This document shows positions 14,791-32,967 of a DNA stretch of 64,000 nucleotides, one piece after another. Each line of letters starts with the position of its first letter. Positions within the stretch are counted from its first letter, which is position 1. The notes under the pieces are model-generated. The model did not search any database and was not told the DNA's origin. It worked only from the letters and a program-made list of their open reading frames with translations. The translations under genes and the position numbers were made by a program. This DNA is from Tepidanaerobacteraceae bacterium (lineage in GTDB: Bacteria > Bacillota > Thermosediminibacteria > Thermosediminibacterales > Tepidanaerobacteraceae): assembly GCA_029982615.1 (NCBI GenBank), contig JARRBK010000005.1, positions 1-64,000 of the forward strand, read 5' to 3'.

Positions 14791-15005
14791 AACTATTCAT
14801 CTCCTGCATTTATTTATGAGCAACAGCTTTAATTTCTATTAAAGACGAAAGCTGACCCGACAATTTTTTAAATATATTTCCACATCTGAACACAAAATCC
14901 TTTTAATAAACAAAAAAATAATTTATTACCATCAATATGCAGTTTGTAGATATAAAGATGCCCTGCTTTTTTAATAGTTAAGCAAAAATTGTTGATGGAG
15001 AGTTC

Positions 15006-17900
15006 ATGAAAAGATATAATAAAAAAGTAGGTGTTTATAATATGCGCATGAGCTCAAAGATGAATAAAAACGAGGCGAGACCCGGAAAAGATTTTGTACA
15101 GAAGGAACCGGGGAAATACCAAGATAAATCATTTATATCCAAGTATGAAGTGGCAGTAGGGGGGAGTACTTTGTACGATGAAATAGAAATCAACAAAGTA
15201 AACGATAAACCGCTGAAACGGAAGGATAAAGTGTACCGGAAACTCGTGGAGCTTACGGAATCACTGCATCCAGAAAAGATAAATAATCAGAGGATGGGTT
15301 TTGAAGCGAGCTTTATCGGGAGGCTAATCGGTGTTAGCCGAAACAACACCAGCAAGGAACTAAATCGCCTTGTGCGGGAAGGCTTGGCTGTAAAAATAGG
15401 CGGCAAACCGGTCCTTTACCTTGCTAAAAAGGTTGTTGAATCTAAGTGGGGATTGAAAATAGGAAGTTTAATAATCAAAGATTACGAAACTTTTAGAAAA
15501 ATAGTTGATAATTACATCGGTAAAAACCACAATATTGCCGATAAAGATACTTTTGCTGGAAATGTGATGCACAGATTTGAAAATAGATTGGTTACAGCCG
15601 GGCAGGAAGATAAACTCAATTTTTATAGCATAAATGATGGTTGCCTGATCGAAAAAAGCGTGCTGGACAGCGTAATAGGCGCCCGGGAAAGCCTCAGAGC
15701 CCAGGTGGAACAGGCAAAAGCTGCAGTGCTGTATCCGCCAAGCGGCCTTCACACGCTGATTGTAGGGCCCACCGGCGTGGGCAAGACCATCTTTGCCGAA
15801 GCCATGTACAGGTATGCTGTGGAGGTGAAAAGGCTGCCGCCGGGAGCACCCTTTATTGTGTTCAACTGCGCTGACTATGCTGAGAATCCTCAGCTTTTGA
15901 TGTCACAGCTCTTTGGACATGCTAAGGGTGCTTTTACCGGCGCCGACAGGGAGAAACGGGGACTGGTGGAAAATGCCGATGGCGGTATATTGTTTCTGGA
16001 TGAGGTTCACCGCCTGCCTCCGGAAGGGCAGGAGATGATGTTCCTTTTGATGGATAAAGGAATCTATCGCCGCCTAGGGGAATCGGAGAACACGAGAAAA
16101 GCTCGGGTGCTCATCATTGCAGCTACCACTGAAGACCCGGAGACCGCCATGCTCCGCACCTTTTTACGAAGAATTCCCGTGGTTATCACGCTTCCAGCGC
16201 TGAAGGAACGAACCCTTCAGGAGCGTATGACCCTCATATGCCAGTTTTTCCGGGAAGAATCGGCGAGGATAAAAGTTCCTGTAAAAGTTTCAAAAGAAGT
16301 GATAAAGGCCTTCATGCTCTATGATTGCCCGGGAAATATCGGCCAGCTCAAAAGCGACGTTCAGCTCATATGTGCCAGGGCTTTTCTGGATTATATGACA
16401 TTTAAAAAAGATATGGTGGAAGTGAAATTGTCTCAGCTTTCCCAGAGGGTGAGGGAAGGCTTCTTTAAGATAGGCGATAAAAGGGAGGAACTCATAAAAA
16501 GTTTTAATCTGAATGACAGCTCAGATGTAATATTTGACGGACAGAATACAGACTTTGATAATTTCCAAAAGATGCTCTTCTTGGATGAATACAAAACCGA
16601 TGAAGATTTTTATGAGATTATCCAAACGGCCTGGCGAAAATATGCGGAAGAAGGCCTTTCTGACAGACAAATTAGAGAAAAAGTTGATAATCAGATAAAA
16701 GATTATTTCGACAGCTTTTTTTCAAAGATAAAGCCTAAAGACCCGGATATAGACATAAAAATCCTGTCGAAAGTCGTAAGCCCTCGGGTTTTTGAAGCAG
16801 TAGAAGAAGCGCTAGAAGAGGTATGTGATGAGTTCGGAGACAATTTTAGCCGAAAAGCCATTTATGGAATTTCCCTTCACGTGGGGACTTTGATGGAAAG
16901 GATGCGGATGGGTACCGTAATATCTCACCCGGATAGAGAAAATATCGAATCAGAACACAAAAGAGAATATGAAATGGCAAAAAAATTAAAGAAAGGATTA
17001 GAAAAAAGGCTTCAAATAAATATTCCTGCTGACGAAGTTGCATATCTTACGATGTTTTTGTATGCTTTAAAGGCCGGGAAAAGCCAGGGGAATATAGGCG
17101 TACTGGTGATTGCCCACGGGAATGCAGCGGCCAGCACCATGGTCCAGGTGGCCAACACTCTGCTGGGCTGCGACCATGCTCGTGCGCTGGACATGCCCTT
17201 GGATGAAAAAGTTGAAGTGATATTAAATAAAGCCATAGAGGAAGTAAGGAAGATAGACAGGGGTAAGGGCGTCCTTATTCTGGTGGATATGGGTTCGCTG
17301 GTGACTTTTTCCCAGATTATTACCGAAAAAACCGGCATCCCCACCAGGATTGTGGAAATGGTCAGCACCCCTATGGTCATTGAAGCCACCCGCAAAGCTT
17401 TGATGCCGGATATGGATATCGATACCCTGGTGGAGGATGTAAAAAGCTTGAGCCCGTATATAGGAAAGAATCAGGGGCCGCAGCCCGCAGCTTTTATCAA
17501 TGAATATGGTGGCCGCTTTTTCCAGAGAATCCTGGTGGATATCCTCGGCAAGACTCTGACTTTTTTAAATCCCCAAAAGGCGTGCAGCGTTTTGAACGAT
17601 GTGCTGCAAAAGATTCTGGCTGATTTTGGAGAAAAACTCGACGATGACATAACCATAAAATTTTTATTTCACTGCTCGTGTATGGTGGAACGACTCATTA
17701 AAGGCGAGCCTTTGTTTTACAGCAACCTGGAGGAACTAAAAAAGGCGCGAAGCAATGTTTTTGCAGTATTGAGGAAACACTTTGAGCTGATAGAAGAAGT
17801 CTTCGGCATAAACATACCTGACGCGGAACTCGCTTATGTGGTGGAAATGTTTGATACACATTATGATACACTTTCGAAAAAATCTGATGCACTTATTTGA
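15006..17900 (+). CDS. LevR/MtlR-type sigma-54-dependent PTS-regulated transcriptional activator
   Basis: A 964-residue enhancer-binding protein. Order: a DNA-binding winged-helix region (about residues 75-145, [21 protein letters not shown]); AAA+ sigma-54 interaction domain with GPTGVGKT (about 252), GAFTGA (about 308), the loop that touches sigma-54, and [15 protein letters not shown]1 (about 590-690); an EIIA-Man-like domain with [10 protein letters not shown] (His near 703); PRD2 (about 850-960). PTS phosphorylation of the PRD and EIIA histidines would tune it to sugar supply. The PTS operon and a sigma-54 promoter lie directly downstream. An in-frame ATG at 15042 is an alternative start. 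Confidence 0.93.
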
Positions 17901-17922
17901 TACACATCTTGTAACGAATTTT

Positions 17923-17948
17923 GCGGTCCATTAAAGGACCGCTTTTTT
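17923..17948 (+). terminator. Rho-independent terminator after the LevR-type gene
   Basis: GCGGTCC (17923-17929), loop ATTAAA, GGACCGC (17936-17942), then six T. The 7-bp stem and T run directly after the stop codon make a standard terminator. Two TTGATACACA sites flank it. Confidence 0.88.
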
Positions 17949-18001
17949 GATACACACATAACGCCGCTCAAAGTTTTTATCGGATAATCTTTTAAATAAC
18001 T

Positions 18002-18039
18002 TCGAGGCTTGCCTCGATGACTGAAATCGAAGATTCGAT
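18002..18039 (+). repeat. Two adjacent short palindromes before the PTS promoter
   Basis: TCGAGGC-TT-GCCTCGA (18002-18017) and ATCGAA-GA-TTCGAT (18026-18039) sit side by side between activator sites and the sigma-54 promoter. Both share a TCGA core. They may be operator sites for a second regulator or small hairpins. Confidence 0.5.
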
Positions 18040-18076
18040 ATTTTATCAGTGTTGATACACATCAATTAAAAAAGCC

Positions 18077-18092
18077 TGGCATGAAGGTTGCT
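18077..18092 (+). promoter_or_regulatory. Sigma-54 (-24/-12) promoter of the mannose-family PTS operon
   Basis: TGGCATGAAGGTTGCT has GG at 18078-18079 and GC at 18090-18091 with exactly 10 bases between, matching the TGGCAC-N5-TTGCW consensus at all but one position. It lies 69 bases before the EIIA start codon and just downstream of a sigma-54 activator gene. Confidence 0.9.
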
Positions 18093-18160
18093 TAGTAATT
18101 TTAACAAAACTCATTAAATAATTTCCAGAAAGAATTTTTGCAGCAAGAGAGGATGGTTTC

Positions 18161-18607
18161 ATGATTGGAGTATTGATTGTAACCCATGGTGATTTTGGAA
18201 AGGAACTTTTAAAAAGCGCGGAACTAATCGTAGGAAAACAAAGTCACGTTATGACCCTCGGTCTTTTCCACGGTGACAGTGTTGAAAGCTTAAGAGAAAA
18301 CATTTCAAAAGCTATTGATGAACTAGATGAAGGCGATGGAGTGTTGGTATTTGTGGACTTATATGGCGGCAGCCCATTCAATGCCACTGCGATGAATATG
18401 GAAAAAACTATAACAAATTCAAGGTTTGAATGCATAACCGGAGTAAACTTGCCCATGGTTCTAGAGGCTTTATCAGTAAGGACATCTTATACGCTGGATA
18501 AATTGAAGAATCACTGCCTTGAAATAGGTAGAAAGGGTATTAAAGATTTATATCAGGAACTCAGCCAGATGGAAGAAAAAATAAAAAAAGCTGTTGATGG
18601 GAGGTAA
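18161..18607 (+). CDS. PTS EIIA component, mannose family
   Basis: A 148-residue EIIA-Man domain. His9 in LIVTHGDFG is the phosphorylation site; VFVDLYGGSPFN (about residues 64-75) is the second conserved stretch. Mannose-family PTS move mannose, fructose, sorbose, N-acetylgalactosamine or similar sugars. ATG start after AGAGAGGATGG. First gene of the operon driven by the -24/-12 promoter. Confidence 0.9.
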   Translation: MIGVLIVTHGDFGKELLKSAELIVGKQSHVMTLGLFHGDSVESLRENISKAIDELDEGDGVLVFVDLYGGSPFNATAMNMEKTITNSRFECITGVNLPMVLEALSVRTSYTLDKLKNHCLEIGRKGIKDLYQELSQMEEKIKKAVDGR

Positions 18608-18611
18608 TAAT

Positions 18612-19091
18612 TTGTTAAATATAGTTCTCACAAGAATAGACGACAGATTAATTCATGGGCAGGTAATGGCTGCATGGTCGAAATTTACAAAAGCAAACAG
18701 AATAATGATAATTGATGATCTGGTGGCAAATGATCCATTCATGGGAAAGATTTTAAAGATGGCCGCTCCCCCGGGGATGAAAGTTGATGTTTATAATGTA
18801 AAGCAGGCTACGGAAATTTTAAAAAATACACACAGTTCCGCCGATAGAGTTATTATTCTCGCAAAATACCCGAAGACAATATATGAGCTCATAGAAGCCG
18901 GAGTTGAAATTAAAGATTTGAATGTAGGAGGGATGGCTGCAGGCCCCGGAAGAAAGACGCTATATAAAAATATTTCTGCATCTGCCGAGGAAAAAGAGGT
19001 CTTTAAAGATATCATATCCAGAGGCACATATGTATATATAAAAATTATTCCAGATGATAAGGAGGTGGATATAAGGAAGTTTTTAGACTAA
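18612..19091 (+). CDS. PTS EIIB component, mannose/fructose/sorbose family
   Basis: About 159 residues. His15 in DDRLIHGQV is the phosphorylated histidine of this family. TTG at 18612 is chosen because GGGAGG sits 7 bases upstream and it gives the canonical MLNIVLTRID start; the frame also opens a few codons earlier. It overlaps nothing and is 4 bases from the EIIA stop. Confidence 0.9.
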   Translation: MLNIVLTRIDDRLIHGQVMAAWSKFTKANRIMIIDDLVANDPFMGKILKMAAPPGMKVDVYNVKQATEILKNTHSSADRVIILAKYPKTIYELIEAGVEIKDLNVGGMAAGPGRKTLYKNISASAEEKEVFKDIISRGTYVYIKIIPDDKEVDIRKFLD

Positions 19092-19143
19092 AACATTAAC
19101 ATGACAAAAGAATATTTCTTAAATTGACGGAGGTGAATTACCA

Positions 19144-19902
19144 ATGACTATCTTTCAGGCAATTCTTATCGGTTGTTATTTCTGGATGAAAAACAACTTC
19201 TACTGGTACGGATTGAATCATGCCTTCTTTTTCCTGCCATTGCCAGCGGCCTTATGGGTTGGCATAGTTTTGGGAAAAATTCCGGAAGCAATGGCAGTGG
19301 GAGCTTTATTGCAGCTAATGTATCTTGGAACAATTGCTCCAGGTGCGAATATCCCTCAGGATCCTGCACTGGCAACATTGATTTCAACAGTCATTGTCCT
19401 TCAAACGGGTGCACCTGTAGAAACGGCTGTTTCCATGGCAATTCCTCTGGGGTTACTTGGAACGATGGCATGGAATTTAAACAGAACTGTTAACGTAATA
19501 TGGGTTCACATGGCGGATAATTATGCAAAAAAAGGAGATACAAGAGGTATTTTTTTGTCAGGGCTTTTATATCCTACTCTGGCGCGAATACCAACTCATG
19601 TTATACCCGTAGCTCTTGCCGCATATTATGGTCCAACTTATATGAAAGCTGTAATAGATGCCCTTCCGGCCAGTGTTATGCATGGTCTTGAAGTAATCGG
19701 AGGCATGATGCCGGCCGTTGGGTTTGCTATTGTAGTCACCGTAATAGGACGCAAGTATTTATTGCCATACTTCCTGGCAGGCTTTTTCTTGGTTCAGTAT
19801 ACCCATATTTCTTCCATGCCTCTTTTGATTTTCGGCCTGATAATAGCCTATCTCCATCTGATGTTTACGGGTAAAAGCGAGGGGGGTGCTGTGAGTGTCT
19901 GA
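19144..19902 (+). CDS. PTS EIIC component, mannose/sorbose family
   Basis: A 252-residue membrane protein with about 7-8 hydrophobic segments (for example FFLPLPAALWVGIVLG, residues 27-42), matching the EII-Sor/ManY fold. It forms the sugar path with the EIID encoded by the next gene, which overlaps its end by 8 bases. ATG start after GGAGGTG. Confidence 0.88.
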   Translation: MTIFQAILIGCYFWMKNNFYWYGLNHAFFFLPLPAALWVGIVLGKIPEAMAVGALLQLMYLGTIAPGANIPQDPALATLISTVIVLQTGAPVETAVSMAIPLGLLGTMAWNLNRTVNVIWVHMADNYAKKGDTRGIFLSGLLYPTLARIPTHVIPVALAAYYGPTYMKAVIDALPASVMHGLEVIGGMMPAVGFAIVVTVIGRKYLLPYFLAGFFLVQYTHISSMPLLIFGLIIAYLHLMFTGKSEGGAVSV

Positions 19903-20719
19903 CAAGCCTGATAGAATTCTAACGAAACGAGATATAACTCTGTCATGGCTTCTCTGGATTTTAAGTTGTGAAGTTTCGAACTCGTTTGAAAGACTGCAAG
20001 CATTGTCTTTTTGTATATCTATGATTCCTATCTTAAAAAAATTGTATAAAACAAAGGAAGAATTTTGCAAGGCCCTTGCAAGGCATCTCCAATTCTTTAA
20101 TACTGAAGGCATTTGGGGTGGGATAGTACATGGAATTACCATAGCTATGGAAGAACAGCGAGCTTTAAATAAAAACATTCCTGATGAAGCCATTACAGGA
20201 ATAAAGACGGGCTTAATGGGGCCTTTTGCTGGAATTGGCGATACGATAAATTGGGCTACTATAACCCCGATAGTTGCTGCCTTCTTTGTGCCATTTGCAA
20301 AAGAAGGGAGCTGGATTGCAGGATTTGCACCTGTAGTTATTTTGGGAGTTGTAACACTTATTGAAGGATATTTTTTATGGCATGCAGGCTATAATGCTGG
20401 TACTACGTCAGCTGTACGCATATTGGAGGCTGGATGGATAAACCAGCTTATACTAGGAAGCAGCATTTTAGGTTTATTTATGATGGGCGGACTTTCGGCA
20501 AGTTTAGTAAAGGTAGCGACCCCTTTGAAATTAACTCTGGAACAGGGCAAGGTTTTTAGCATTCAGACAGACTTATTAGACAAGATAATTCCCGGAATTC
20601 TGCCATTGTTGACCATAACCTGTGTCTATTTATACATTGAAAAATTTCAGAACTATACGAAAGCTGTTTTATGGCTCTTGCTTATTGGTTTTACTCTAGG
20701 AGTTTTAGGGATTTTGTAA
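19895..20719 (+). CDS. PTS EIID component, mannose family
   Basis: A 274-residue EIID/ManZ protein. GIVHGITIAMEEQRA and GLMGPFAGIGDTINWA (about residues 110-125) are family hallmarks; the C-terminus is a set of membrane segments. GTG start inside the EIIC end, after GAGGGGGG, indicating translational coupling. Completes a full IIA-IIB-IIC-IID set. Confidence 0.9.
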   Translation: MSDKPDRILTKRDITLSWLLWILSCEVSNSFERLQALSFCISMIPILKKLYKTKEEFCKALARHLQFFNTEGIWGGIVHGITIAMEEQRALNKNIPDEAITGIKTGLMGPFAGIGDTINWATITPIVAAFFVPFAKEGSWIAGFAPVVILGVVTLIEGYFLWHAGYNAGTTSAVRILEAGWINQLILGSSILGLFMMGGLSASLVKVATPLKLTLEQGKVFSIQTDLLDKIIPGILPLLTITCVYLYIEKFQNYTKAVLWLLLIGFTLGVLGIL

Positions 20720-21038
20720 ATAATCAAGGATAATGAAAAAAATTTTTATCATTAATTGACAAATATCCGGTTATAAATAACGACCGAGATACTGGAAAAT
20801 TGATTCTAATCAGGTGTTTCGGTCGTTATGTACTTGCTCCCATTAATATATGGATAAAACTAAAAACCATGCAGGATATGAATCTTTAAATAAAGACGCA
20901 TATGGTAGAAAATGAGACAATCAAGATGAATAAGATAATAAATAATGAATTTTGTTTTTTTTTGTGAGGGTAAATGCATAAATTGGAGGAGGACAATAAA
21001 AATACGAAGCTTAATCGAAGGAGATTGGAGGCATTAAT
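20720..21038 (+). other. Intergenic region with an 11-bp inverted repeat
   Basis: ATAACGACCGA at 20777-20787 is repeated inverted as TCGGTCGTTAT at 20819-20829, with a 31-base loop. There is no clear T run, so it may be a weak terminator of the PTS operon, an attenuator, or a binding site. The rest of the region shows nothing I can name until AAGGAG ahead of the SDR gene. Confidence 0.5.
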
Positions 21039-21863
21039 ATGAAAAAATCATGGCTTGGTCTTGAAGAAAAAGTTGCCATTGTCACTGGTGGCGCTTCGGG
21101 AATAGGGAGGGCCATTTCTGAAGAAATGGCTGTGCAGGGGATGAATGTGGTCGTATCTGATGTAAAACCAGCAGGGATAGAAGTTGCAAATGGACTCTGC
21201 GGTGGGCCAGAAAAGCATTTGTTTGTTAAAACCGATGTGAAAGATTTTCAAAGCGCTGAGAATATGGTAAAAAAGACCATAGAGAAGTATGGCAAGGTGG
21301 ATGTGCTAGTTAACAACGCTGGAATATCTATACCACGGCTGCTGATAGACCCAAATGACCCAAAGGGGAGATTTGAGCTCAAGGAAAAAGAATTTGATTT
21401 GATGGTGGCCGTTAATCTGAAGGGAGCATTTTTGTGCGCTCAGGCGGCTGCCAGGGAAATGGTTAAAAGGAATTATGGAGTGATAATTAACATGAGTTCC
21501 GAAAGCGGTCTCGAAGGCTCTGAAGGCCAGAGCTGCTATGCAGCCACTAAGGCTGCACTGTATTCCCTCACCAGATCATGGGCCAAGGAGCTAGGAAAAT
21601 ATGGCATAAGGGTAGTAGGGCTGGCACCGGGGATCCTTGAAAAAACCGCCTTGAGAACTGAAGACTACGAGGAAGCACTGGCATATACCAGAGGTATAAC
21701 AGTGGAGCAACTTCGCGAGAGCTACGAGAAAATATCCATACCTTTGGGAAGAGTAGGAACCTTAAAAGAAGTTGCGAATATGGTCTGTTTTCTTGCTTCA
21801 GACAGGGCTAGCTACGTTCATGGTGTAACTTACAACATCTCTGGTGGAAAATCAAGAGGGTAA
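21039..21863 (+). CDS. SDR family oxidoreductase, sorbitol-6-phosphate 2-dehydrogenase-like
   Basis: A 274-residue classical short-chain dehydrogenase: TGGASGIG (residues 16-23) for NAD(P), NNAGIS near 89, and the catalytic SCYAATK. The opening WLGLEEKVAIVTGGASGIG and the LLIDPNDPKGRFEL insertion resemble SorD-type enzymes that convert sorbitol 6-phosphate or sorbose 1-phosphate. That fits the mannose/sorbose-type PTS upstream, although 319 bases separate them. ATG start after GAAGGAGATTGG. Confidence 0.75.
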   Translation: MKKSWLGLEEKVAIVTGGASGIGRAISEEMAVQGMNVVVSDVKPAGIEVANGLCGGPEKHLFVKTDVKDFQSAENMVKKTIEKYGKVDVLVNNAGISIPRLLIDPNDPKGRFELKEKEFDLMVAVNLKGAFLCAQAAAREMVKRNYGVIINMSSESGLEGSEGQSCYAATKAALYSLTRSWAKELGKYGIRVVGLAPGILEKTALRTEDYEEALAYTRGITVEQLRESYEKISIPLGRVGTLKEVANMVCFLASDRASYVHGVTYNISGGKSRG

Positions 21864-21868
21864 TATTT

Positions 21869-24800
21869 TTACATATCAAAAAGGCTGGCTTGCTTGTATT
21901 GTCTTGCCTGCTTTTGTGGAAAGGCATTCTCTATTATAAGTTGTTCTTCAGATATGTCGCCAATAAAAAGAGATGGAGTACGGGATGTCACAAGTATAAG
22001 TTCCTCCTGCGCTCTTGTCATGCCGACATAGAAAAGCCGTCTCTCCTCGTCTATATCATAACATCTGGATGAGCTACTTTTTAAAGGAATTATACCGTCG
22101 TTTGCTCCATATATAAAAACTGTGGGGAATTCAAGGCCCTTTGCAGCATGTATGGTCATTAACCAGACCGCATCCGGACAATATGCCTTGCTGCCGCTTC
22201 GCATAACATCACTTTCGCGGCCCAGTACAAGGTTTTGAATAAAGGAAGACATCTTGTCATACATAACAGCTGTATTTAAAAGCAGTTCCATGCATTTCAG
22301 CCCTGATGTACTGTTGTCGTTGATCCAGGAAGTTATAATTTTTTCCGGCTTTTCTTTATGGACGATAGGTTCATATTTTCTCAGCATTTCCGTGAAATGC
22401 TGGAGCTTTGCCGCTTCCTGTAACACAAGTTCTGTTTTTTCCATTAACCTTATAAGTTGCAATACACTTTTTTCGCCTGCAGCGTAGCTTTTCAGGACTT
22501 TTTGGTCCAGGTCTTCTGAATATATGTTTTCTGTTTTAAGGTATAACAATAGCGAAGCAACGTTGCTGGGGTTGAGCAAAAACCTGAAGAAGGCGATCGC
22601 TTTACGCACAGGCTTTTCTGAAAGGAATTCATCCCGGCCTGCGACCACATATTGTATGCCTTCTTTTGAAAGGCACTGCTCCAGGATTTCTGCCTGGCGG
22701 TTGGTGCGGTATAGCACGGCTATATCGGAGAAACCCCTTGTGTGCCTTGTCGCAGGCCTTTTTTTGCCAGGGCCTGAAAGTGCATGAGCATCAAGCATAT
22801 CGATGCCGCCGACCATGCGGTTTATTTCCTTTGCAATAAATACAGCCTCTGCAAATTCATCACTGGCTTTAATTAGGCGCACTTTTGAGCCGCTTTCCCT
22901 TTTAGCATACAGAGGGCAGGTTTCCCCTGCTGCGGTTTTCTTTGAGATAACCGATTTGGCGGAAGCGATTATCTCAGGCGTCGAACGGTAATTCTGGGTA
23001 AGCCGGACGTAACGGATGCCGGGGAAATCTTGCTTCAGCCTTTCAAAAAAACGAAAATCCGAACCTCTGAAACCGTAAATACACTGATCGGGGTCTCCTA
23101 TAAAGAAAACACTTTTGCTTTTTTTGCCCCATTCTTTTATCAGGTGGTATTGTATGTCGTTTATATCTTGGAATTCATCCACCAGCAGGTGTGAGAAGCA
23201 GTTTTCCTCGCCACTTTCCGGTATATCCAATGTATTATTGTCCTCAAATCGGCGAAGCACTTCGATAAGGATATCATCATAATCCATTAAACCATACCTT
23301 TTAAGCTGTGAGCAGTATGAATCGTATACATCAGCCGGAATATTTGATTTAGAATCTTTCGCCCCGGCTATACCGTTTTTAATAAGCGATATACCTCTTA
23401 AAACATCCCATGGAGAAATTCTCAATTTTAGGTTCTTTAATATCTCCTCGACTATTGAAACAGCAGTATACTCATCGATTATGGTTAAGTTAGTTGCATC
23501 CTTCCATTTAGATAGCAATTGAAGGCATATGGAATGGAAGGTACCTATGTTTACTGCACTTGCTTTCCACCCTTCCCCAAAATGCTCTTTCAGGCGCGTG
23601 CGCATTTCATTTGCAGCTTTATTTGTAAATGTGACGGCGGTTATGCATGAGGGATTTACGCCACATTTTTCAATAAGGTATGCGATGCGGCATATCAGTG
23701 TTTTTGTTTTCCCGGTTCCTGGGCCTGCAATTACCGCCATTGCAGGGCAGGAGGCGGACACGGCTTCCCACTGTTCCTGGTTCAAGCCATAGAGAATATC
23801 TGAGGGAGCGGTTTTAACAGCGTCCATGCTATCGCTGGGCGCACAGCAATCGACTAAGAATTGCGCCGATTCGGCTTTGTCTGTCGAAATCTTCTTATTT
23901 TCGATGCTGCCGGGTATGGCTCCTTTGGCGTTAGTGCATTTGTCGTTGATAAGACACAACTGGCCTGAAAGCATGTTTATTTCATTTTTGTCCATTATTT
24001 TTATTTTCCCATATTCGCCGTCGTAACCGGGCTTTATTTCTATCTCGCCGCATCTTAGCCTGCGGATTCCTTCAGCTATGTATGGGCCTGCCAAAAGTTC
24101 GATATCTTTTAACGGCGCCTTGCGGAGTATGTAAAATTCAGGCCCAAGATTGCGAATCATGTCTTCGTATTTTCTCTTTACCTTAACACTGGATGCAGAT
24201 GAACCTATGGATGAAGCTATTACCTCATGAAGAGGCACAAGGCTTTCGAAAGGCCTTGCAGTCGATGGTTTGAATCCTTCGGGCCTATCTGCCAGGCTTT
24301 CGACCCGGTGAAGCACCCCAACCGTTATTTTGCCGCCGCATACCGGGCATTTTCCTCCGGCGGCTATCGTGTCGGCAGGGCTCCAGCAGACGTTGCACTT
24401 TCTGTGCCCATCATAATGGTATTTGCCTTCTTCTGGGAAAAACTCGATAGTGCCGTGGAATTTGTCAGTACCCGAGCCTTTTAAAGCTCTCAAAATTCCT
24501 CTGTATGAAAGCTCTGCGTCAAAAACATTTGCCTCTCTGCCGAGATTCATCGGCGAATGTGCATCCGAGTTGGATACCAGCGTGAATCCGTCCAGTGCTG
24601 AAAGGCGCCAATTCATTGGGGGATTGGAAGAAAGCCCGGTTTCCAGGGCAGATATATAGCCGGTAAGGTCTTCAAAGCACTCTCTGATGTCGTCGAAGCC
24701 CGAATATGCGCCGTAAAGGGAAAAATGCGGCGTCCATATGTGAGCTGGGATGAATATGGCATCAGGGCATACCTCAAGAACCATTTCGAGCAAAACTCTG

Positions 24801-31885: not shown

Positions 31886-31901
31886 TGGCATGCATTTTGC
31901 T
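31886..31901 (+). promoter_or_regulatory. Sigma-54 (-24/-12) promoter of the proline racemase gene
   Basis: TGGCATGCATTTTGCT has GG at 31887-31888 and GC at 31899-31900 with 10 bases between, as in the sigma-54 consensus. It lies 58 bases before the start codon. No activator gene is adjacent. Confidence 0.82.
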
Positions 31902-31959: not shown

Positions 31960-32967
31960 ATGTTGAGATTTGAAAGAATGATTACTGCTGTGGATACTCA
32001 TACAGGAGGAGAGCCGACGCGCACCATAATAGGCGGATTGCCACGCATACCGGGTAAAACAGTTAGCGAAAAGATGGTTTACATGCGGGACCATATGGAT
32101 TGGATCCGAACCATGCTCATGTATGAACCGCGGGGCCATAGTGTTATGTCAGGGGCAATAATAACGGAGCCGAGCGATCCCAGGGCAGATATAGGAGTTA
32201 TTTATATTGAGACAGGTGGATACCTGCCAATGTGTGGCCATGACACCATAGGCTTTTGTACTGCCCTTATTGAGATGGGGATGATTTCAGCGTCGGAACC
32301 TATAACCACCATCACTCTGGAAACACCAGCGGGCCTTGTTACAGTAAAAGCAGCTGTTGAAAATGGGGTTGTACGGACAGTCACGTTTAGGAATATTCCT
32401 TCTTTCATGTATATGGCGGATGTCGAAATAAAAGTGCCGGAGTTGGGCAAAATTACCTTAGATATCGCGTATGGGGGAAATTTTTATGCAATAGTAGACG
32501 CTGAAAAAGTTGGAGTGACGATTGCACCCGAAAATGCAAGGGAAATTATACGGCTGGGTAGATTAATTAAGGACGCAGTAAACAGTCAGTATACTATTCA
32601 GCATCCAGAAAGGCCTTACATACATGGTTTAACACATGTTGAATTTTCTGGCCCTCCTGCTCATGAGAAGGCACACGCGAAAAACACGGTACTAATCACC
32701 CATGATGCTCTGGATCGCTCACCCTGTGGAACTGGCACATCTGCAAAACTTGCTGCTCTGTATGCGAAGGGGCAAATTTCACTCAACCAGGAATTTGTAC
32801 ATGAAAGCATTGTGGGGAGTCTATTTATAGCAAAAGTTGTTGAAGAATGTGAGGTAGCCGGTTTTAAGGCGGTGATACCAGAAATTACTGGGAGTGCTTA
32901 TATAACCGGCATTCACCAGTTTGTAGTCGACCCTGACGACCCTTTGAAGATGGGTTTTCTGCTGTGA
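31960..32967 (+). CDS. Proline racemase / 4-hydroxyproline epimerase family protein
   Basis: A 335-residue member of the proline racemase family. Both catalytic cysteines are present: Cys92 in PMCGHDTIG and Cys256 in SPCGTGTSA. This separates it from trans-3-hydroxyproline dehydratases, in which one Cys is replaced. It interconverts L- and D-proline or epimerises hydroxyproline; D-proline is the substrate of the selenoenzyme proline reductase in Stickland fermenters. No prd genes are nearby. ATG start after AAGGAGG. A sigma-54 promoter lies upstream. Confidence 0.88.
   Translation: MLRFERMITAVDTHTGGEPTRTIIGGLPRIPGKTVSEKMVYMRDHMDWIRTMLMYEPRGHSVMSGAIITEPSDPRADIGVIYIETGGYLPMCGHDTIGFCTALIEMGMISASEPITTITLETPAGLVTVKAAVENGVVRTVTFRNIPSFMYMADVEIKVPELGKITLDIAYGGNFYAIVDAEKVGVTIAPENAREIIRLGRLIKDAVNSQYTIQHPERPYIHGLTHVEFSGPPAHEKAHAKNTVLITHDALDRSPCGTGTSAKLAALYAKGQISLNQEFVHESIVGSLFIAKVVEECEVAGFKAVIPEITGSAYITGIHQFVVDPDDPLKMGFLL

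Follow-up and report, generated by a model that had tools for sequence, protein, structure and literature searches.

The decamer TTGATACACA, repeated upstream of a mannose-family PTS operon in the window (the whole 64,000-nucleotide stretch analysed, from a Tepidanaerobacteraceae bacterium), is very probably an upstream site of the adjacent LevR-type sigma-54 activator. The initial annotation had read it this way, and conservation in relatives, a blind search across genomes and covariation with the recognition helix of the regulator all point in the same direction. The sites are conserved, are restricted to LevR/mannose-PTS loci, fall into two spacing classes relative to the promoter, and vary in step with the regulator. 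Judging from the sequences, we hold with considerable confidence the overall explanation that the decamers would be bound by the LevR-type activator, that the distal copies would act as a looping enhancer, and that the copy nearest the promoter, site F, would serve for docking.

All elements named in the initial annotation (four exact decamers, a shorter copy, and a -24/-12 promoter) were found in the sequence (Table 1). The exact copies (A, D, E and F, starting at 17851, 17897, 17947 and 18052) share a single orientation and occur on the + strand only. Two degenerate copies lie beside them: site B, ATGATACACT, which is the "shorter copy" of that annotation, and site C, CTGATGCACT, which adds to its list. 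Sites A, B and C fall within the regulator ORF and D straddles its stop codon, in agreement with the reported position of some sites inside the 3' end of the regulator gene. The spacing of C and D is 13 bp vs. 12 bp for A and B. Counted from the predicted start, site F spans -51 to -42, and 15 bases separate it from the T of TGG.

Table 1. Features of the decamer array and its surroundings in the window; site numbering is counted from a predicted start at ~18103.
Feature	Position	Strand	Remarks
Site A, TTGATACACA	17851..17860	+	-252 to -243; in frame in the regulator gene, codons F-D-T-H
Site B, ATGATACACT	17863..17872	+	starts at -240; 12 bp after A
Site C, degenerate CTGATGCACT	17884..17893	+	starts at -219
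Site D, TTGATACACA	17897..17906	+	-206 to -197; across the regulator stop codon
Site E, TTGATACACA	17947..17956	+	-156 to -147
Site F, promoter-near TTGATACACA	18052..18061	+	starts at -51; preceded by the inverted half-site TATCA
Sigma-54 promoter (-24/-12), TGGCATGAAGGTTGCT	18077..18092	+	fits the consensus TGGYAYNNNNNTTGCW exactly
LevR-type sigma-54 activator gene	15006..17900	+	ORF; winged helix, AAA+ with GAFTGA, PRD1, EIIA-Man, C-terminal PRD
Recognition-helix segment (approximate)	15326..15373	+	AlphaFold model
Terminator-like hairpin of the regulator gene	17922..17948	+	RNA fold -15.6 kcal/mol, z -5.25; T run merges into site E
Inverted repeat TCGAGGCTTGCCTCGA in the E-F linker	18002..18017	.	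in the window; also in L009, with one base changed, and in part in L008
Mannose-family PTS genes: IIA 18161, IIB ~18594, IIC 19144, IID 19895	18161..20719	+	Pfam
Short-chain dehydrogenase, possibly the last operon gene	21039..21863	+	Pfam

The promoter matches TGGCAY-N5-TTGCW, and the genome encodes rpoN (G000:C24). The regulator has the LevR-type layout, with a GAFTGA-bearing AAA+ domain (Sigma54_activat, PF00158, E 2.8e-41) followed C-terminally by PRD (PF00874, two stretches) and EIIA-Man (PF03610) domains, and its C-terminal region matches LicT PRD structures. Candidate His residues can be seen in the sequence of the PRD and EIIA regions. An AlphaFold model of residues 61–165 (mean pLDDT 87) predicted an N-terminal winged-helix DNA-binding domain, with a helix-turn-helix plus a beta wing and a recognition helix that begins at RNNTSKELN. 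In the PDB, the modelled domain is matched best by winged-helix proteins, in support of this assignment, though with no E value below 0.001. Downstream, a 319-base gap with a strong hairpin separates the PTS genes from the short-chain dehydrogenase, which makes co-transcription of the latter uncertain. This hairpin (20765–20835; -25.2 kcal/mol, z -4.6) is without a T run. Rfam gave no RNA element over 14800–22000.

The cluster of decamers is more than chance would give, since every other 10-mer in the window reached at most two copies per 212 bases, and two was also the ceiling in 60 first-order Markov simulations of 64 kb. The initial annotation had raised the concern that the decamer might be common genome-wide. 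Just six copies were found in the 1.82 Mb draft (68.5% complete), four of them in the array; the remaining two fall within the coding sequence of unrelated genes, away from any sigma-54 promoter. We rejected a generic repeat on account of this rarity, the clustering, and the lack of sigma-54 promoters at the copies outside the array.

Close orthologues of the regulator at loci L008 and L009 (76–77% protein identity) are accompanied by the whole array, in which the offsets from A to E are fixed and the linker to the promoter varies in length. Across three relatives, 26/26 columns of the sites are invariant vs. 84/150 in the rest of the linker. Codons at the coding sites (DTH...DT) were identical in 26/30 comparisons vs. 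1028/1746 elsewhere in the gene (P 0.001, with pairs that are not independent), and thus show fewer silent changes than the remainder of the regulator gene. Site A is kept in L008, L009 and L086 and appears as TCGATACACA in L010, the latter two being more distant orthologues; the A-B pair with its 12-bp spacing is common to all four. Equivalents of site C occur at the same offset of 33 (CTGACACACT in L008, CCGACGCACA in L009). The gap between site F and TGG is 15 bases in the window, 13 in L008, 16 in L009 and 13 in L010, where the F-like site reads TTGATACGCA; L086 has ATGATACACT at a gap of 15. In L008, the first gene behind the promoter encodes an iron alcohol dehydrogenase, with the PTS genes after it, so the array goes with the regulator and promoter rather than with the first gene. 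In six relatives, decamers outside the arrays are single and away from sigma-54 promoters. The sites therefore behave as a UAS array: they are repeated upstream, conserved with regulator and promoter, and rare elsewhere. We rejected the idea that the distal block keeps strict helical phase with the promoter, as the distances from site A to TGG in the three close relatives (226, 247 and 265 bases) differ by 21, 18 and 39.

A blind pattern without any gene information (decamer, 3–6 bases, -24/-12 promoter) was searched in ~85,000 species genomes. It matched 44 stretches vs. ~4 expected by chance, as estimated from pattern information, and 40 of the 44 were LevR/mannose-PTS loci. Both neighbours are visible in the fetched DNA at 34 of these 40 and one neighbour at the others. 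The loci come from Selenomonadaceae, other Negativicutes, Clostridium, Clostridioides and Lactobacillaceae, and many of the species share ancestry, so the counts are not independent events. The 41st match (L147, oriented position ~479–509) places TTGATACACA five bases upstream of a sigma-54 promoter in Clostridium polyendosporum, and the gene that follows encodes a secreted GH32 enzyme. Because this genome also holds a PTS-type locus (L132), the GH32 gene may be a LevR target located apart from the PTS operon. The remaining three matches (Chloroflexota, Prevotella and Acinetobacter) look like chance.

Although gaps of 3–6 bases were allowed, the 40 loci used only gaps of 4 (33 loci) and 5 (7 loci). 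A second scan of 399 genomes, with gaps of 0–30 allowed, returned nine loci, six of them with a gap of 4; the other gaps (13, 15 and 16) belong to the window and to the two relatives closest to it. A reversed-pattern control yielded 0 vs. 9 in each of two 399-genome scans. The two spacing classes, 4–5 and 13–16 bases, are about one helical turn apart. Recurrence of the decamer, promoter-near copy included, at such loci in Selenomonadaceae, Clostridium, Clostridioides and Lactobacillaceae gives no support to the notion that F is peculiar to this locus or that the site sequence is limited to a narrow subgroup. We agree with the initial annotation that the promoter-near copy calls for a separate explanation, and it proves to be conserved in this activator family across dozens of species.

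As an alternative to the predicted LevR binding, we considered whether the decamers might bind another regulator or be unrelated repeats beside the LevR gene; the inverted half-site that accompanies F and the second conserved inverted repeat in the linker would suit another binder. This is very improbable, given that the blind genome-wide search yielded LevR/mannose-PTS loci almost exclusively and that the site varies with the protein. Specifically, we compared helices and sites at the blind-search loci and at loci retrieved with nothing but the DNA-binding domain, and placed 32 regulators on a tree. One residue of the LevR recognition helix varies together with position 5 of the site, and Lys occurs with T in 21/21 tree rows. 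Regulators with ...SKELN have TTGATACACA, and those with ...SRELN near the clade of the window have TTG(A/G)CACACA. The T-to-C change accompanies Lys-to-Arg, and the Arg/C state arose at least two times in the tree. Two genomes hold paralogues with different site variants, each matching its own regulator (in G020, L086 is T-type and L087 C-type; in G010, L010 is T-type and L094 C-type), which also argues against another binder. The covariation supports predicted binding by linking the decamer with the DNA-binding domain of LevR, and on this ground the adjacent regulator is very probably the binder. A strict code of Lys with T and Arg with C is weakened by L205 and L207, whose Arg regulators, outside the clade of the window, keep T. 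LevR-type regulators with the helix SSDLN (L185, L195, L201 and L222) have TTAATACACA near their promoters, a hint of a wider helix-to-site code.

In the mechanism that we propose, the distal block (the A-B pair, the C-D pair and E; -252 to -147) would form a compact enhancer, bound by the activator as dimers or higher oligomers. From there, the activator would meet sigma-54 RNA polymerase by looping over an E to F linker of variable length (105–143 bp). PTS phosphorylation of the EIIA and PRD domains of the regulator would couple activation to sugar supply. Site F, at its constrained distance from the -24 box, would be a docking site that holds the AAA+ assembly beside the polymerase; provided that the sites bind LevR, we lean towards this role. 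In relatives with 4–5-bp spacing, activation may depend mainly or solely on the promoter-near site. We infer binding, looping and the direction of the effect of F from the patterns described above.

Most loci carry further, more distant decamer copies besides the promoter-near one. The promoter-adjacent pair constitutes the sole sites found at L110 and L106, and no clear promoter-near copy was found at L101, L103–L105 and L108, so F is not essential everywhere. This distribution favours an activating or docking role over that of a pure governor, that is, a site occupied solely at high levels of active regulator, which would hinder looping or polymerase binding and cap expression of the PTS operon. 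We regard a governor as possible, if distinctly less probable than docking. A role in limiting transcription would suit a site at about -46 equally well, and the nearest NtrC governor site of Escherichia coli glnAp2 is presumably about as close to the promoter as F. At glnAp2, the promoter-near NtrC sites 3 and 4 have been suggested to restrict transcription when NtrC-P is high (PMC3870243), and synthetic sigma-54 enhancers were quenched by loop-bound proteins with ~10.5-bp periodicity, although tandem promoter-near sites in such enhancers lean towards upregulation (PMC4740811). Like the window, glnAp2 has activator sites both distant from and near a sigma-54 promoter, whereas NtrC has a different type of DNA-binding domain and its governor sites are of low affinity. 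Site F is an exact, not a weakened, copy, which argues against low affinity, and a governor without an enhancer, as at L110 and L106, would make no sense.

Another role would be for F to let LevR hold the promoter shut until the PTS switches it on, irrespective of regulator concentration. In its favour, the sites with gaps of 4–5 bases (-40 to -31) border on the footprint expected for the polymerase, but F shares orientation and sequence with the activating sites and some loci have no other site found, and we think this explanation improbable. Returning to activation, it is conceivable, though we are rather doubtful, that LevR-type activators commonly act from the promoter-abutting site (-40 to -31 or one turn out) without long-range looping. 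If true, the AAA+ ring would be delivered at short range and the distal enhancer block would be an addition, not a core element.

In textbooks, sigma-54 activators bind enhancers remote from the promoter. A widespread family with promoter-abutting sites at two discrete helical positions would offer a natural test of the need for looping and of how activator and polymerase dock. The decamer, together with the covariation of one residue with one base, could also allow prediction of LevR-type regulons in many Bacillota of gut and environmental origin, with genes distant from the PTS locus, such as the GH32 gene of C. polyendosporum, among their members.

LevR-type activators with multiple UAS sites are already known. 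Bacillus subtilis LevR uses a UAS at -125 of the lev operon (PMC10864463); like the regulator in the window, it combines an N-terminal DNA-binding domain with AAA+, PRD and EIIA-Man domains, a sigma-54 promoter and a mannose-family PTS target. In the position of its sites, the window differs in having a five-site block plus a promoter-near site. The LevR-like CelR of Bacillus thuringiensis and Clostridium acetobutylicum has three UAS, and mutation of UAS2 and UAS3 reduced activity (PMC10864463). Its target is a cellobiose rather than a mannose-family PTS. The portion of Nie et al. 2019 (PMC6615313) drawn on here describes Clostridiales sigma-54 regulons, those of LevR and other PRD activators included, with multiple UAS per operon, a regulator gene adjoining its target, and most sites 100–250 bp from the promoter. 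That portion credits the PRD-activator motifs to Nie et al. 2016 and does not mention the promoter-abutting class seen at window-type loci. In the literature consulted, sites stand 80–150 or 100–250 bp away from the promoter. Neither the two-class promoter-abutting position nor the covariation of helix and base turned up in the literature searched, which excluded the motifs of Nie et al. 2016, and a literature text search for the exact decamer gave 19 papers, with no title among them on bacterial sigma-54 control.

Some minor features were also noted. The inverted repeat TCGAGGCTTGCCTCGA in the linker could be a bend or a second regulator site. Elsewhere in the genome, a region in the frame of its second LevR-type gene (G000:C30:16596-16754) gave a weak match to a sigma-54 DNA-binding domain, just over the cut-off. 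The window holds a second full-consensus sigma-54 promoter, TGGCATGCATTTTGCT (31886–31901, +), ~58 bases before an ORF (31960–32967) that we named by eye from its sequence as proline racemase-like, an arrangement that recalls the regulation of proline catabolism by sigma-54 predicted for clostridia.
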